A DNA stretch of 64,000 bases from positions 1 through 64,000 of the forward strand of contig JAAYHJ010000031.1 in assembly GCA_012735465.1 (NCBI GenBank). The letters are read 5' to 3'. Below, one piece after another: positions 4,809 to 11,519 of the stretch (position 1 is its first letter; the number at the start of each line of letters is the position of its first letter). A program made the position numbers and the translations under genes. Under the pieces are notes generated by a model. It made no database searches and was not told the DNA's origin. It saw nothing but the letters and a program-made list of their open reading frames with translations. This stretch comes from Clostridiaceae bacterium. GTDB taxonomy: Bacteria > Bacillota > Clostridia > SK-Y3.

Positions 4809-6548
4809 GTGGAAATGGTGAATGTAATTATTGACGGCCAAAAAATTCAGGTGCCTAAGAATTATACCGTTCTTGAGGCGGCCAGAAGTGCAAATATAGA
4901 TATACCGACACTTTGTTATTTAAAAGGCATAAATGAGATAGGCGCTTGCAGAATATGCGTCGTTGAAGTTAAAGGGGCAAGAAGCTTGCAGGCTGCCTGT
5001 GTATACCCTGTATCGGAAGGCCTGGAAATCAGAACAAACACGCCTGCCGTAAGGGAAGCAAGAAAGGTAAACCTGGAGCTAATACTTTCCAATCATGACC
5101 GCAAGTGCCTTACCTGCGTAAGAAACAGGAATTGTGAGTTGCAGAAATTGGCAGAAGATTTAAATGTGCAAAATATTCGTTTTGAAGGCGAGACCTATAG
5201 GTTCCCGGTGGATGATTTTTCTCCTTCAATAGTAAGGGATCCTAACAAATGCGTATTGTGCAGAAGGTGTGTGAGTGTTTGTAAGAATATCCAGACCGTA
5301 TCGGTTATTGATGCCCAGGAAAGAGGATTTAAGACAATAGTTGCCTCTGCCTTTAATAAGCCCCTCAGCGAGGTGCCCTGTACCATGTGCGGACAGTGCA
5401 TAGTTGCATGTCCGGTAGGTGCCTTGAGGGAAAAAGATGATGTAGACCGTGTATGGGAAATGCTCAGTGATGAGACAAAGCATGTTGTGGTACAGACGGC
5501 TCCTGCAGTAAGGGTTGCACTGGGCGAAGAATTTGGAATGCCCATTGGAACAAGGGTAACGGGCAAAATGGTAGCTGCCTTGAGGAGAATTGGTTTTGCA
5601 AAGGTATTTGATACCGACACGGCAGCAGATTTAACCATAATGGAAGAAGGAACGGAGCTCTTGGGACGCCTTAAAGAAGGTAAAAACCTTCCCTTAATTA
5701 CCTCATGCAGTCCCGGCTGGATTAAGTTCTGTGAACACAATTATCCGGAATTTTTGGATAATTTGTCTTCCTGCAAATCGCCCCATGAAATGTTCGGCGC
5801 AATTATAAAATCCTACTATGCGGAAAAGATGGGTATTAATCCCGCTGACATTCGAGTGGTATCTGTAATGCCTTGTACTGCTAAAAAGTTTGAAAGCGTA
5901 CGGCCCGAACTGGCCGCAACCGGTACTCCCGATGTGGATGCGGTTATTACGACCAGGGAGCTTGCCCGCATGATAAAGGAAGCAGGAATTGACTTTGCAG
6001 CACTGCCGGATGAAAGCTTTGACAATCCCTTTGGGGATGCAAGCGGAGCAGGTGTTATCTTTGGGGCAACCGGAGGCGTTATGGAAGCAGCCTTGAGAAC
6101 GGTTGCAGAGATTCTTGCAGGAAAGCCTATTGATAGTATTGAGTATACTGCTGTAAGAGGAGTAGAAGGAATAAAAGAAGCTGTTGTAGAACTGCCGGGC
6201 AGGACCATACGGGCAGCTGTGGCTCACGGTTTGGGCAATGCAAGAAAGCTGCTTGACAGGATCAAGGCAGGAGAAGCCCAGTATGATTTTATTGAAATCA
6301 TGGGATGCCCCGGCGGATGCGTGACCGGCGGCGGACAGCCGATACAGCCGGCAAAGGTAAGAATGGACATTGATTTGAAGGTAGCAAGAGCAAAGGCAAT
6401 TTACGATGAAGATAAGAGCCTTCCTATCCGTAAGTCCCATGAAAACCCGTTTATAAAGAAGCTGTATGAAGAGTTTTTGGGTGAACCCTGTGGGCATAAG
6501 TCTCACGAACTGCTTCATACCCATTATACGAAGAGAACGAATTATTAA
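4809..6548 (+). CDS. hydA: [FeFe] hydrogenase catalytic subunit (HydA)
   Basis: A protein of 579 residues from a GTG eight bases after GGAAAGGGGA; an ATG two codons later is an alternative. The N-terminal part holds a plant-type [2Fe-2S] domain (CYLKGINEIGACRIC), a His-ligated [4Fe-4S] motif (HDRKCLTC...NC), and two [4Fe-4S] clusters (CVLCRRCVSVC, CTMCGQCIVACP). The H-cluster domain has L1 TSCSPGW (C300), L2 MPCTAKK (C356) and L3 GCPGGC (C500, C504). A C-terminal small-subunit region follows, with a tail rich in Cys and His (EPCGHKSHELLHTHYTKR). These are group A, prototypical motifs. With HydB and HydC it should reversibly make H2 from ferredoxin and NADH together. Confidence 0.96.
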   Translation: MEMVNVIIDGQKIQVPKNYTVLEAARSANIDIPTLCYLKGINEIGACRICVVEVKGARSLQAACVYPVSEGLEIRTNTPAVREARKVNLELILSNHDRKCLTCVRNRNCELQKLAEDLNVQNIRFEGETYRFPVDDFSPSIVRDPNKCVLCRRCVSVCKNIQTVSVIDAQERGFKTIVASAFNKPLSEVPCTMCGQCIVACPVGALREKDDVDRVWEMLSDETKHVVVQTAPAVRVALGEEFGMPIGTRVTGKMVAALRRIGFAKVFDTDTAADLTIMEEGTELLGRLKEGKNLPLITSCSPGWIKFCEHNYPEFLDNLSSCKSPHEMFGAIIKSYYAEKMGINPADIRVVSVMPCTAKKFESVRPELAATGTPDVDAVITTRELARMIKEAGIDFAALPDESFDNPFGDASGAGVIFGATGGVMEAALRTVAEILAGKPIDSIEYTAVRGVEGIKEAVVELPGRTIRAAVAHGLGNARKLLDRIKAGEAQYDFIEIMGCPGGCVTGGGQPIQPAKVRMDIDLKVARAKAIYDEDKSLPIRKSHENPFIKKLYEEFLGEPCGHKSHELLHTHYTKRTNY

Positions 6549-7571: not shown

Positions 7572-8327
7572 CTAGCGCCTGAATACCCAGAGTTTGAGAA
7601 CGGCTAAAAATTCTCTAAGATATGTAGTAGGTACTGCGTACCATTGCAGTTCTGCACCATAGCTTGTAGCATCAATACCGGCTATTTTTGCAAGTTGCCC
7701 TGCTCTGTAAATATGAAAATCATTTGTAATATAAGTTACCTTATAGGGTTTTTTAAAATAATCGTCTAATAACAACTTGGAAAACTGAAAATTTTCATAG
7801 GTACTTGTTGCATTTTCTTCTTTGATAATTTTATTTTTTGGTACTCCCTTTGATATCAAATATTTTTCCATGGCAAGGGCTTCGGTTATTCTCTCCTGAT
7901 GCCCTTGTCCTCCTGTCACTACTATAACCGCATTTGGATTCTTATTTATGTATTCTATTCCCTTATCAAGTCTGTAAGCAAGAGGAAGGGAAACCCTATA
8001 TCCTCTTATCCCGGCACCCAGGATTATAACTGCATCCTCTTCAAATGTAGCAGTATCTATATTGCCTACAATTGCAATGAATAAAATCACTCCCATCATA
8101 AATAAAGTACCTGCGTAAACAGTATATTTAATCCATTTCATAATACCTCTGCTTGTAATCTTATTAATCTGCTTATTGAACGCTCCATAACAAAACAAAG
8201 CTAACCCAAAGATAAAGGCAGCTATAATTCCAACATTAAAATTAGTTATTACTGCCATTACCAATGAATTAATTATTAATAATACACCTGCGCACATTAG
8301 TAATTTTATAAAGATATTTTTTATCAT
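7572..8327 (-). CDS. YdcF/SanA-like (DUF218) membrane protein
   Basis: A protein of 251 residues. Three or four hydrophobic helices fill residues 1-90. A DUF218 domain follows with VILGAGIRGYRVSLPLAYRL, VVTGGQGHQERITEA, the acidic-polar motif EENATSTYEN and TNDFHIYRA. The family includes E. coli SanA, ElyC and YdcF, linked to envelope integrity; the Gram-positive members are long multi-spanning versions with no proven reaction. It is transcribed against the TPR gene and away from the second hydrogenase, so it is probably monocistronic. Confidence 0.85.
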   Translation of the reverse strand: MIKNIFIKLLMCAGVLLIINSLVMAVITNFNVGIIAAFIFGLALFCYGAFNKQINKITSRGIMKWIKYTVYAGTLFMMGVILFIAIVGNIDTATFEEDAVIILGAGIRGYRVSLPLAYRLDKGIEYINKNPNAVIVVTGGQGHQERITEALAMEKYLISKGVPKNKIIKEENATSTYENFQFSKLLLDDYFKKPYKVTYITNDFHIYRAGQLAKIAGIDATSYGAELQWYAVPTTYLREFLAVLKLWVFRR

Positions 8328-8565
8328 TTAGCCACCGCCTTGTTGCAAATTTTATCGTGTTTTATATTATTTTATAATACATAACATAACTGCGCAATTA
8401 AAAGAGACGTCTATTATAGCGAGGTTATTCTGCAATATATAAATCTTGAAGTCATGTTTGGCAGCTTCACAGTATTTACATCTGTGATTGCAATGAATAG
8501 TTGGATTGGCTTAAAGATATAATAAAATTGATTTTTTATGGAAAAATAGAAACTTTATAGGTACA

Positions 8566-8587
8566 ATTATAATTATATAATTATAAT
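8566..8587. promoter_or_regulatory. Perfect 22-bp AT palindrome before the second hydrogenase
   Basis: Two 11-base arms, ATTATAATTAT and its complement, meet without a spacer 22 bases before the start codon. It contains TATAAT-like hexamers on both strands, so it could be a -10 region, an operator, or both. AT-rich palindromes can arise by chance in this base composition. Confidence 0.35.
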
Positions 8588-8609
8588 CATCATGAAAGGA
8601 AGTTATGCT

Positions 8610-10001
8610 ATGAGCAATAGGTTTAGTAATTTCCAGGAAAAGAGAATGTTTATATTTGGCGAAATTGTAAGGCGCTATTGGAATGGCCAATTAAATAGTT
8701 CTGATGACTTAAACCGGTTAACTTATGAGATTAAGGATAAATTTGAATTTGAAGATAAAGATATTCCATTTATAAAAGACCATATACGAATAGCCATGGG
8801 CCTGGATCCTAAAGGTGATGATGATTTTAAAGATGAGTTGGAAATGGTCAAAGGCTCAAAAGAAGTTAAGCAGCCGGTTGTTGCCAAGATTGACGGGATA
8901 TGTGAATATTGCGAAAATGATGAATGCAAATGCATGGGAACATGTAAATATGAAGCGGATATTTATAAAAAACAAGAAGGACCGGTTATAGTGGACAACA
9001 AGTGTTTAACCTGTGGTCAATGTGTTGCAAGCTGCGATTTTGGTGCTTTGGCAGATAAGATAGAATTTGTACCTGTGATTGATCTGCTGAAAAACAACGA
9101 AGTTCAGGTTTATGCAGTGGTTGCTCCGGCTATTGTGGGTCAGTTTGGTGAAGATGTATCCATGGGTCAATTGAGAACGGCTTTAAAAATTCTAGGTTTT
9201 CAGGATATGATTGAAGTAGCATTATTTGCAGATATATTGACCATAAAAGAAGCGTTTGAATTTAATCATTTAGTTAAGACGGAAGAAGATTTTTTCCTTA
9301 CAAGCTGTTGTTGCCCGGTGTGGTTTAATTTGACGAAGAAAAACTATCCCGATCTTTTTGAATTTATGTCTCCATCGGTATCACCCATGATTGCTTCAGG
9401 CAGAATATTGAAAAAGCTGTATAAGGACGCAAAGGTTGTATTTATAGCACCCTGTATTGCTAAGAAGGCAGAAATAAAAGAGCCGGAACTAAAAGGAGCC
9501 ATAGATTTTGTTTTAAATTTCAGAGAATTGGATGAAATATTTAAAGCCCTTGACATAAAGCTGAGGGACTTGCCTTCTGATGAAAAGGACCAGGCGTCTT
9601 TGGGCGGAAGAATATATGCAAGAACCGGAGGAGTAAGCTTTTCCGTAAAAACGGTTGTGAATAGGCTTGAACCCCGACGGCTTATTAAGCTTAAAGCTAA
9701 AAAAGTTGATGGTGTTAAAAAATGTAAGATGATATTGGACGAGCTATCGGCTAAAAAGAACATCAACTATAATTTTATTGAAGGTATGGGATGCGAGGGC
9801 GGTTGCGTCGGAGGGCCAAGGACAATTATTGATGTGGATAAGGCAACAAAGTTAGTTAATGAGTTCGGAGAAGATTCTCTTATAATGACACCTTTTGATA
9901 ATATAAATGTTATGAAGATTCTTGGACAGTTAGGAATTGAGTCTATTGAAGAAATAATGAGTAATGAAGAGGTATTTAATATTTTAACTCGTGAATCATA
10001 A
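8610..10001 (+). CDS. Single-subunit [FeFe] hydrogenase with group B-like H-cluster motifs
   Basis: A protein of 463 residues from the ATG nine bases after AAAGGA; the ATG at 8592 has no site. After a helical N-terminal region come a Cys-rich segment (CEYCENDECKCMGTC, residues about 98-112) and a ferredoxin-type motif CLTCGQCVASC. The H-cluster domain has L1 TSCCCPVW (C233-C235), L2 APCIAKK (C282) and L3 GCEGGCVGG (C395, C399). These differ from HydA (TSCSPGW, MPCTAKK, GCPGGC) and fit group B enzymes such as CpIII of Clostridium pasteurianum. There is no PAS domain, so it is not a typical sensory hydrogenase. No maturases lie nearby. Catalytic bias and electron partner cannot be read. Confidence 0.88.
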   Translation: MSNRFSNFQEKRMFIFGEIVRRYWNGQLNSSDDLNRLTYEIKDKFEFEDKDIPFIKDHIRIAMGLDPKGDDDFKDELEMVKGSKEVKQPVVAKIDGICEYCENDECKCMGTCKYEADIYKKQEGPVIVDNKCLTCGQCVASCDFGALADKIEFVPVIDLLKNNEVQVYAVVAPAIVGQFGEDVSMGQLRTALKILGFQDMIEVALFADILTIKEAFEFNHLVKTEEDFFLTSCCCPVWFNLTKKNYPDLFEFMSPSVSPMIASGRILKKLYKDAKVVFIAPCIAKKAEIKEPELKGAIDFVLNFRELDEIFKALDIKLRDLPSDEKDQASLGGRIYARTGGVSFSVKTVVNRLEPRRLIKLKAKKVDGVKKCKMILDELSAKKNINYNFIEGMGCEGGCVGGPRTIIDVDKATKLVNEFGEDSLIMTPFDNINVMKILGQLGIESIEEIMSNEEVFNILTRES

Positions 10002-10062
10002 GAAAAAAATTTTGAGATGAATATTCTCCGATAACGTAATATTTACAGCAGGTGGAGAAAAT

Positions 10063-10101
10063 TCTGAAAATTCCGCTGATAGTGGATTTCAGATTTTTCT
10101 C
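10063..10101 (+). terminator. Terminator after the second hydrogenase
   Basis: TCTGAAAATTCC pairs with GGATTTCAGA (one bulge) and is followed by TTTTTCTCTTTTGTTTTT, a classic intrinsic terminator. Confidence 0.75.
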
Positions 10102-10289
10102 TTTTGTTTTTGAATGTGTCGAAACGTGATGTAACTTGCGATAAAAAAACAAAAGGAAAAGAAGGAATTCTTTTCTATTGCTTTCTCTGTTAAAAACGCA
10201 AACAGTAGAATACTTTTGTTTGTAAGAAAACTTCCCATATAATAAATTCTATTATTATCCATCCAAATTCCACAACATGTAAAAAATAG

Positions 10290-10481
10290 GTGATGACATG
10301 CACATTTAATCATTTTTTAAAGATGGAAATAGAGCATAGAGAACTTGTCAGGAAGAACAGGAATCTGAAATCAGCTGGTTTTGATGTTATTAAAACTTTT
10401 GAAAACTACGAATTCGGGGATATTCGGATACCAAGTACAATAGGTGTTGAAGAATTAAAGTATGGAAATATTGAATTTTAG
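10290..10481 (+). pseudogene. Fragment of an IS21-family IstB helper ATPase
   Basis: The last 53 residues of this short frame (from MEIEHRELVRKN through AGFDVIKTFENYEF to IPSTIGVEELKYG) resemble the region before the Walker A motif in IstB proteins. There the pattern EHRE...R..KAAGF..LKTFE.Y.F....P..L is common. The P-loop and everything after it are missing, and no IstA or terminal inverted repeats were seen nearby, so this is an insertion-sequence relic. The call rests on recalled family patterns. The rest of the 750-base stretch between the hydrogenase and the next gene holds no other gene I can support. Confidence 0.5.
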
Positions 10482-10754: not shown

Positions 10755-11519
10755 TTGGTTTGGATATACATATCTGTACTTTTATTAATATTTATATTTG
10801 CGGTTTTTTGTAGAGTAAGGAATATAAAAGTCATTAGAGTTTTTGGCTTTGAACTAATGAGTCTGCTAATTTTGTCACTGATTGTAATTTTTATAATAGG
10901 TGAAGTCTTTTTACCTATGCCACAATATTATATAAAACATGAAGGAAGTAAAAAGCTCAATCTAAATGAGGTTTTAGAGGAAGAGACATTAAGAGCAGGT
11001 ATTGAATTTGATGAAGGTAGTTTTAAAATTTTAGATAGTTATGGTATGCATTTTAATCACTTGTTTTTATGCTCTTATGAAATAGATGGAAAAGAAGAAG
11101 CTTGCTTTTTCCATTTTGAAAAGAATATCTTTGGAAACATGAAGCCAAGATATCCTTTGAAAGAGATTAACATAATCACAGGCAGGAATAATCAGGATGA
11201 CTATTATAGGTCATATGTAGAAGATGGTATTTTTGCTGAATATCTTGTAACAGTAGGGTTGGGAGTTGATTCATCAACATCAATCAATTTTGAGTCAAAT
11301 AAATATAGAATATCTAAAACTCCTCAAGAGGGTTATTTTATGTGGGTTGAGATGATAAGAGAACCTTGGAAATCATATTTAGTAATGTTAATTTTATATG
11401 CTGGAATTATTTTCATTATATCAAGATATCAGAATAATAAAATAGAACCTGTAAAATTCTATAGTAAATGGAAAAAAGGAGATAAGATTTTTACATGCAC
11501 TAAAAATGTAAACCCATAA
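10755..11519 (+). CDS. Unrecognised membrane-anchored protein
   Basis: A protein of 254 residues from a TTG seven bases after AGAGGTG (10741-10747). Two hydrophobic helices at the N terminus (residues 1-18 and 28-52) and one near residues 208-225 bracket an acidic soluble domain of about 150 residues. This domain holds FDEGSFKILDSYGMHFNHLFLCSYEIDGKEEACFFHFEK-type beta-rich sequence (quoted loosely). The topology suggests a small outward-facing domain held by helices at both ends. I do not recognise the family. It sits between mobile-element relics with no partner gene, and its AT content resembles its surroundings. Confidence 0.6.
   Translation: MVWIYISVLLLIFIFAVFCRVRNIKVIRVFGFELMSLLILSLIVIFIIGEVFLPMPQYYIKHEGSKKLNLNEVLEEETLRAGIEFDEGSFKILDSYGMHFNHLFLCSYEIDGKEEACFFHFEKNIFGNMKPRYPLKEINIITGRNNQDDYYRSYVEDGIFAEYLVTVGLGVDSSTSINFESNKYRISKTPQEGYFMWVEMIREPWKSYLVMLILYAGIIFIISRYQNNKIEPVKFYSKWKKGDKIFTCTKNVNP

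Follow-up and report, generated by a model that had tools for sequence, protein, structure and literature searches.

The closest described relatives of the hydrogenase examined here belong to group B2, which in the Calusinska scheme comprises TSCCCPxW enzymes of about 450 amino acids, including CpIII of Clostridium pasteurianum (PMC5506873). CpIII is described as active and strongly biased towards H2 production (PMC9431212, PMC8924675), and its poor H2 oxidation was argued in 2025 to reflect inactivation rather than a true bias (PMC12541403). The group B HydA of Thermosediminibacter oceani carries an extra cysteine near the active site and forms Hinact (PMC13397568), and in Bacteroides a group B enzyme is reported to reoxidise ferredoxin, with gut H2 production dominated by group B enzymes (PMC12578642). 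The initial annotation of the locus called group B poorly studied; this is now less true, since CpIII, the T. oceani enzyme and gut enzymes have been characterised (PMC12138974, PMC13397568, PMC12578642), and it holds in so far as few group B enzymes have been studied despite their dominance in the gut.

The window (the whole 64,000-nucleotide stretch of DNA analysed) contains an open reading frame at 8592-10001 on the forward strand, 469 amino acids long when counted from its first ATG, with Fe_hyd_lg_C as its sole Pfam match (1.2e-66). The hydrogenase frame and its three H-cluster motifs, including the triple cysteine of L1, were found in the sequence as originally annotated (Table 1). The gene had been placed at 8566-10001, of which the end was correct; position 8566 lies at the palindrome and is ruled out as the gene start. 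ATG 8610 is probably the start rather than ATG 8592, because the Shine-Dalgarno-like AAAGGAAG overlaps the latter and points to 8610, and because the majority of relatives start in that column.

Table 1. Features of the hydrogenase locus (window coordinates; residue numbers refer to the 463-aa protein).
Feature	Position	Strand	Evidence
22-bp perfect AT palindrome ATTATAATTATATAATTATAAT	8566..8587		sequence; none in relatives
Promoter-like TTTATA-16-TATAAT (10/12), overlapping the palindrome	8554..8581	+	pattern scan
Shine-Dalgarno-like AAAGGAAG, 7 nt ahead of ATG 8610	8595..8602	+	sequence; column used by most relatives
CDS, group B2 [FeFe]-hydrogenase, 463 aa (start probable)	8610..10001	+	Pfam, NCBIfam, relatives' start column, trees
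N-terminal three-helix domain (model residues 8-62)	8631..8795	+	AlphaFold2 model; B1 N-terminus similar by eye in alignment
Distal cysteine site C-2-C-4-C-1-C-3-C	8901..8945	+	alignment; at least 4 Cys in 44/44 clade rows
Proximal [4Fe-4S] motif CLTCGQCVASC, FS4A type	9003..9035	+	alignment
H-cluster motif L1 TSCCCPVW	9300..9323	+	sequence, alignment
H-cluster motif L2 APCIAKK	9447..9467	+	sequence, alignment
H-cluster motif L3 GCEGGCVGG	9789..9815	+	sequence, alignment

The window protein scored below the cut-offs of both NCBIfam models considered, with 165.5 bits against 405.95 for TIGR02512 (group A) and 341 bits against 450 for TIGR04105 (B1). A TIGR04105 profile search over 196 genomes of the class separated the matches into two populations: those above the cut-off, present in 78 of the genomes and nearly all spanning the whole model, and a set of shorter ones scoring about 270-340 bits, among them the window protein with 325 bits in this search. 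The rows extracted from the shorter population have TSCCCP, a motif shared by every one of the 44 rows of the window clade (described below) and of the 26 other B2 rows; in B1, serine occupies the first of the three L1 cysteine columns in 42 of 42 rows. In an 87-row tree the TSCCCP rows formed one group (SH-aLRT 99), as did the window clade (100), and row L152 grouped among B1. A 50-row tree, which excluded the long-branched L149, L150 and DdH, L152 and part of each larger group, gave support of 98/95 for B2, 100/100 for the window clade, 96/92 for B1 and 100/99 for group A. Both trees were built without the CpIII and T. oceani HydA sequences, and in both the group A rows used stayed separate from the window protein, which also fell outside the sensor-type homologues.

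The group B-like identity outside group A proposed in the initial annotation was thus borne out by both trees, the motifs and the NCBIfam scores. The gene is more exactly assigned to group B2, because TSCCCPVW and a length of 463 aa match the published definition (PMC5506873) and the protein is placed with B2, apart from A and B1; the label is based on that motif and size definition together with a Clostridium sardiniense row (L052) bearing the CpIII motif set. That a B2 hydrogenase of a separate clade is present here is a sound finding, though mostly of a known kind. The CpIII-type subclade is marked by phenylalanine and glycine at the positions of CpI T351 and M353, and the window protein has the phenylalanine and an alanine in place of the glycine. 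Hydrogenases of the sensory groups C and D carry an accessory output domain or a C-terminal Fe-S domain and have lost the proton-transfer cysteine. The window protein has only Fe_hyd_lg_C and retains that cysteine.

A scan of genome contigs yielded 48 loci, and with later fetches 44 rows, window gene included, constitute the clade. Its other rows are 63-82% identical to the window protein, against 37-50% for the 26 other B2 rows. Matches at E of 1e-80 or lower occurred in 74 of 392 genomes of the class, and identity of at least 61% in 21 of the 392, the source genome and two partial genes included. The position of CpI M353 is alanine in 35 clade rows, serine in five and glycine in four, and is glycine in all 68 group B rows outside the clade (26 other B2, 42 B1). 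After the L1 proline the clade has valine (41) or isoleucine (3), and the other B2 rows have methionine (14), isoleucine (10) or valine (2). All 44 rows conserve the four H-cluster cysteines without exception. The distal site, with at least four cysteines throughout, is variable in spacing (C-2-C-4-C-1-C in 18 rows, C-2-C-4-C-1-C-3-C in 13 and six other spacings in 13), and the proximal motif is incomplete in five rows (L021, L026, L031, L038, L051); the window protein itself retains all four H-cluster cysteines and all four proximal-cluster ligands. The clade offers natural variants at two residues near the H-cluster (alanine or serine for glycine, valine for methionine) on a constant TSCCCP background, and also natural losses of accessory-cluster ligands. 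Two B2 rows outside the clade, L145 and L146, have lost nearly every accessory cysteine. Records titled 'Calditrichales bacterium' (L013), 'Lutibacter sp. B2' (L016) and 'uncultured Ureaplasma' (L053) also carry clade-type hydrogenases, which are otherwise found in clostridial records, and these names or bins may be erroneous.

The AlphaFold2 model of the window protein (54 aligned sequences) had a pLDDT of 89.7 and a pTM of 0.91; its first 62 residues form three helices, and the F-domain is weak at about residues 100-130. The closest structures by VIA-align were the group A enzymes CbA5H, TmHydA and CpI (Z 37-38, rmsd 2.7-3.8 over about 370-400 residues), at 22-28% identity in the structural alignment; these share the H-domain fold with the window protein, and the group A rows used are separate from it in both trees. 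B1 proteins (TIGR04105), among which we assume the gut Bacteroides group B enzymes to belong, have an H-domain related to that of the window protein and an N-terminus that looks similarly helical, but they lack the third cysteine and possess an extra ferredoxin-like stretch. CpIII and the window protein have in common a size of about 450 aa, TSCCCPxW, the phenylalanine at the CpI T351 position and two accessory cysteine sites (PMC5506873, PMC12138974). Compared with CpIII as it is described there, the clade has alanine or serine for glycine at the M353 position in 40 of 44 rows, and the window protein has valine for methionine after the L1 proline and a different distal cysteine spacing; the clade is also separate from the CpIII-like C. 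sardiniense row in both trees. By analogy with the roles assigned to C221-C223 of CpIII (PMC12138974), C233 of L1 would be the supernumerary cysteine, C234 the proton-transfer residue and C235 the cubane ligand.

Five Fe_hyd_lg_C genes were found in the genome, which is 98.6% complete. Two of them are group A enzymes of the multi-subunit NAD(H) type, and because both adjoin NuoF/NuoE-like subunits the window enzyme is the only stand-alone non-sensor copy among the five. The upstream HydA (4809-6548 of the window) reads TSCSPGW, with serine where CpI has a cubane-ligand cysteine; we rejected this as an oddity, since its best PDB match, HydA1 in 7q4v (from A. woodii according to the title of 7q4w), has the same serine. 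Two more of the five, sensor-type homologues with SSACP at L1, are a 436-aa protein carrying an FeS domain at its C-terminus and an 873-aa fusion of Fe_hyd_lg_C, PAS, sigma-54 activator and HTH (contig C18, L149:4888-7509), which has a degenerate L3 motif and is possibly an H2- or redox-sensing transcription activator. HydG is present in the genome and would make maturation of the window enzyme possible.

The window gene was also confirmed as an orphan: the commonest neighbour family occurs in 10 of the 44 clade loci, many of which end at contig ends, and a conserved partner gene was rejected on this count. The genes flanking it (7572-8327, reverse strand, and 10755-11519, forward strand) encode a DUF218 protein and a protein without a Pfam match. 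A gene resembling pyruvate-formate-lyase activase, named from reading its sequence, lies near the hydrogenase in five of 44 clade loci (L039, L040, L043, L051, L010). No Rfam match was found across 8200-10300. A link with nitrogen fixation was likewise rejected: no nifH scored above cut-off in the genome, and CpIII transcripts are reported as low with or without fixed nitrogen (PMC5506873), which leaves the initial annotation's mention of nitrogen limitation without a basis here.

The best explanation, to which we give a probability of about 0.68, is that the product of the window gene is a soluble group B2 [FeFe]-hydrogenase that stands alone and evolves H2 with electrons from a one-electron carrier of low potential, probably ferredoxin. 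Electrons donated by such a carrier would most likely be used for H2 evolution, and the supernumerary L1 cysteine, which is shared with T. oceani HydA, would probably let the enzyme rest in an oxidised, inactive form, as CpIII does; catalytic activity, its direction, the electron donor and the resting state are all inferred from CpIII and the T. oceani and Bacteroides enzymes. To our knowledge no activity has been described for any member of the clade. The alanine at the CpI M353 position, in place of the glycine of CpIII and of the 68 group B rows outside the clade, counts against this reading, and the loss of proximal ligands in five clade rows is odd for an enzyme fed through its proximal cluster. 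The 2025 argument that CpIII is inactivated rather than truly biased (PMC12541403) also weighs on this side.

Those ligand losses, together with two other B2 rows that have lost most of both accessory sites, the orphan locus and a CpIII transcript level of about 1% of that of CpI or CpII (PMC5506873), would fit a protein that binds the H-cluster and acts mainly as a slow H2 or redox sensor or regulator. We consider such a role unlikely, as the protein has no output domain beside Fe_hyd_lg_C and retains the proton-transfer cysteine, in contrast to the SSACP of the two sensor-type homologues, and as group B mutants of Clostridium autoethanogenum and Bacteroides are reported to be altered in growth or fitness (PMC9431212, PMC12578642). 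The C. autoethanogenum mutant grew poorly on H2-rich gas (PMC9431212), an observation that favours H2 uptake, with electrons returned to ferredoxin, as the main role; this too is improbable, given that CpIII and the T. oceani enzyme are described as poor H2 oxidisers in solution assays through oxidative inactivation (PMC12541403) and that the window protein has the same extra cysteine.

The 22-bp palindrome just before the gene was present as annotated; it surpasses every other perfect palindrome of the 64-kb window in length and is unlikely by chance (simulating the 263-bp intergenic region with a first-order Markov model gave one of 22 bp or more in 0.11% of trials). No copy of it was found in the other 43 clade rows, scanned over at most 260 nt of upstream DNA (L029 offered 3 nt only) and including the two nearest relatives at 80-82% identity; the 20-bp palindrome at -164 in L046 is unrelated. 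We read it as AT-rich promoter DNA, because it is pure A/T with TATAAT repeats; the region held 11 promoter-like sites against 7.9 ± 3.2 in shuffles, no excess. The suggested operator, presumably for a dimeric repressor of the hydrogenase gene, has its position at the promoter and its rarity (chance about 0.0011 per intergenic region) in its favour, but is very improbable when the clade orthologues do not conserve it and promoter AT-richness accounts for it.

The most unexpected result of the analysis is the apparent use of AUA start codons within the clade, which bears more on the relatives than on the window gene. Among 45 distinct clade members with an N-terminus, the conserved start column holds ATG in 23, TTG in five and GTG in three, and L020 and L023 have a canonical start elsewhere. 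From the in-frame upstream stop to Met13, six genes (L008, L009, L012, L016, L025, L156) lack ATG, GTG and TTG alike, and in each of them inspection of the sequence shows an ATA a few nucleotides behind a Shine-Dalgarno-like stretch. Another six (L006, L007, L010, L011, L044, L048), including the two nearest relatives of the window gene, are ambiguous: they have ATA at or near the start column, and their canonical codons are confined to the Shine-Dalgarno sequence or the stretch ahead of it, L011 being the weakest case with its ATA three codons upstream. Four clade rows with an N-terminus lie outside the search pattern that gave these 45: an ATT in L022 and an ATA in L028 stand one codon farther upstream, while L024 and L051 have ATG. 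As a control, the canonical start was late in five of 43 clade rows (L156 not included) and in none of the 26 other B2 or 42 B1 rows.

Ten pairwise comparisons of five of the six genes (L012 was omitted for its offset) gave 27, 22 and 54 differences out of 110 at codon positions 1, 2 and 3 in the 11 codons after the ATA, and 52, 33 and 38 out of 90 in the nine codons before it. The concentration of differences at the third position after the ATA suggests that these 11 codons are translated. On the tree of the 45 members the ATA label requires 5 changes, against 10.8 for shuffled labels, and since the window gene groups with the ATA-bearing L006 and L007, its ATG is most simply taken as a reversion. 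The infC gene, read in three of four such genomes, has an apparent ATT start after AGGAGGTG or GGAGGTG, with all canonical codons excluded only in L194. It is thus fairly probable that this B2 lineage, which includes the window gene by descent, has a conserved AUA start behind a strong Shine-Dalgarno sequence, that synthesis would be throttled by initiation-factor-3 proofreading as for infC, and that the window gene has reverted to AUG.

A search of the open-licence PMC literature found no report of AUA or ATA starts in hydrogenases. The closest parallel is in Staphylococcus aureus, where infC, ccpN and citZ are described as having AUA with a strong Shine-Dalgarno sequence, like the clade members, and where output from non-canonical starts in poor medium was about 10% of that from AUG (PMC13009471); those genes are not hydrogenases, and their starts were mapped by ribosome profiling, whereas the clade starts are inferred from sequence. 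If confirmed, the AUA starts would be a case of a metabolic enzyme whose non-canonical start is conserved over several clostridial genera, and gene calling restricted to ATG, GTG and TTG would trim 12 residues from the protein of those species.
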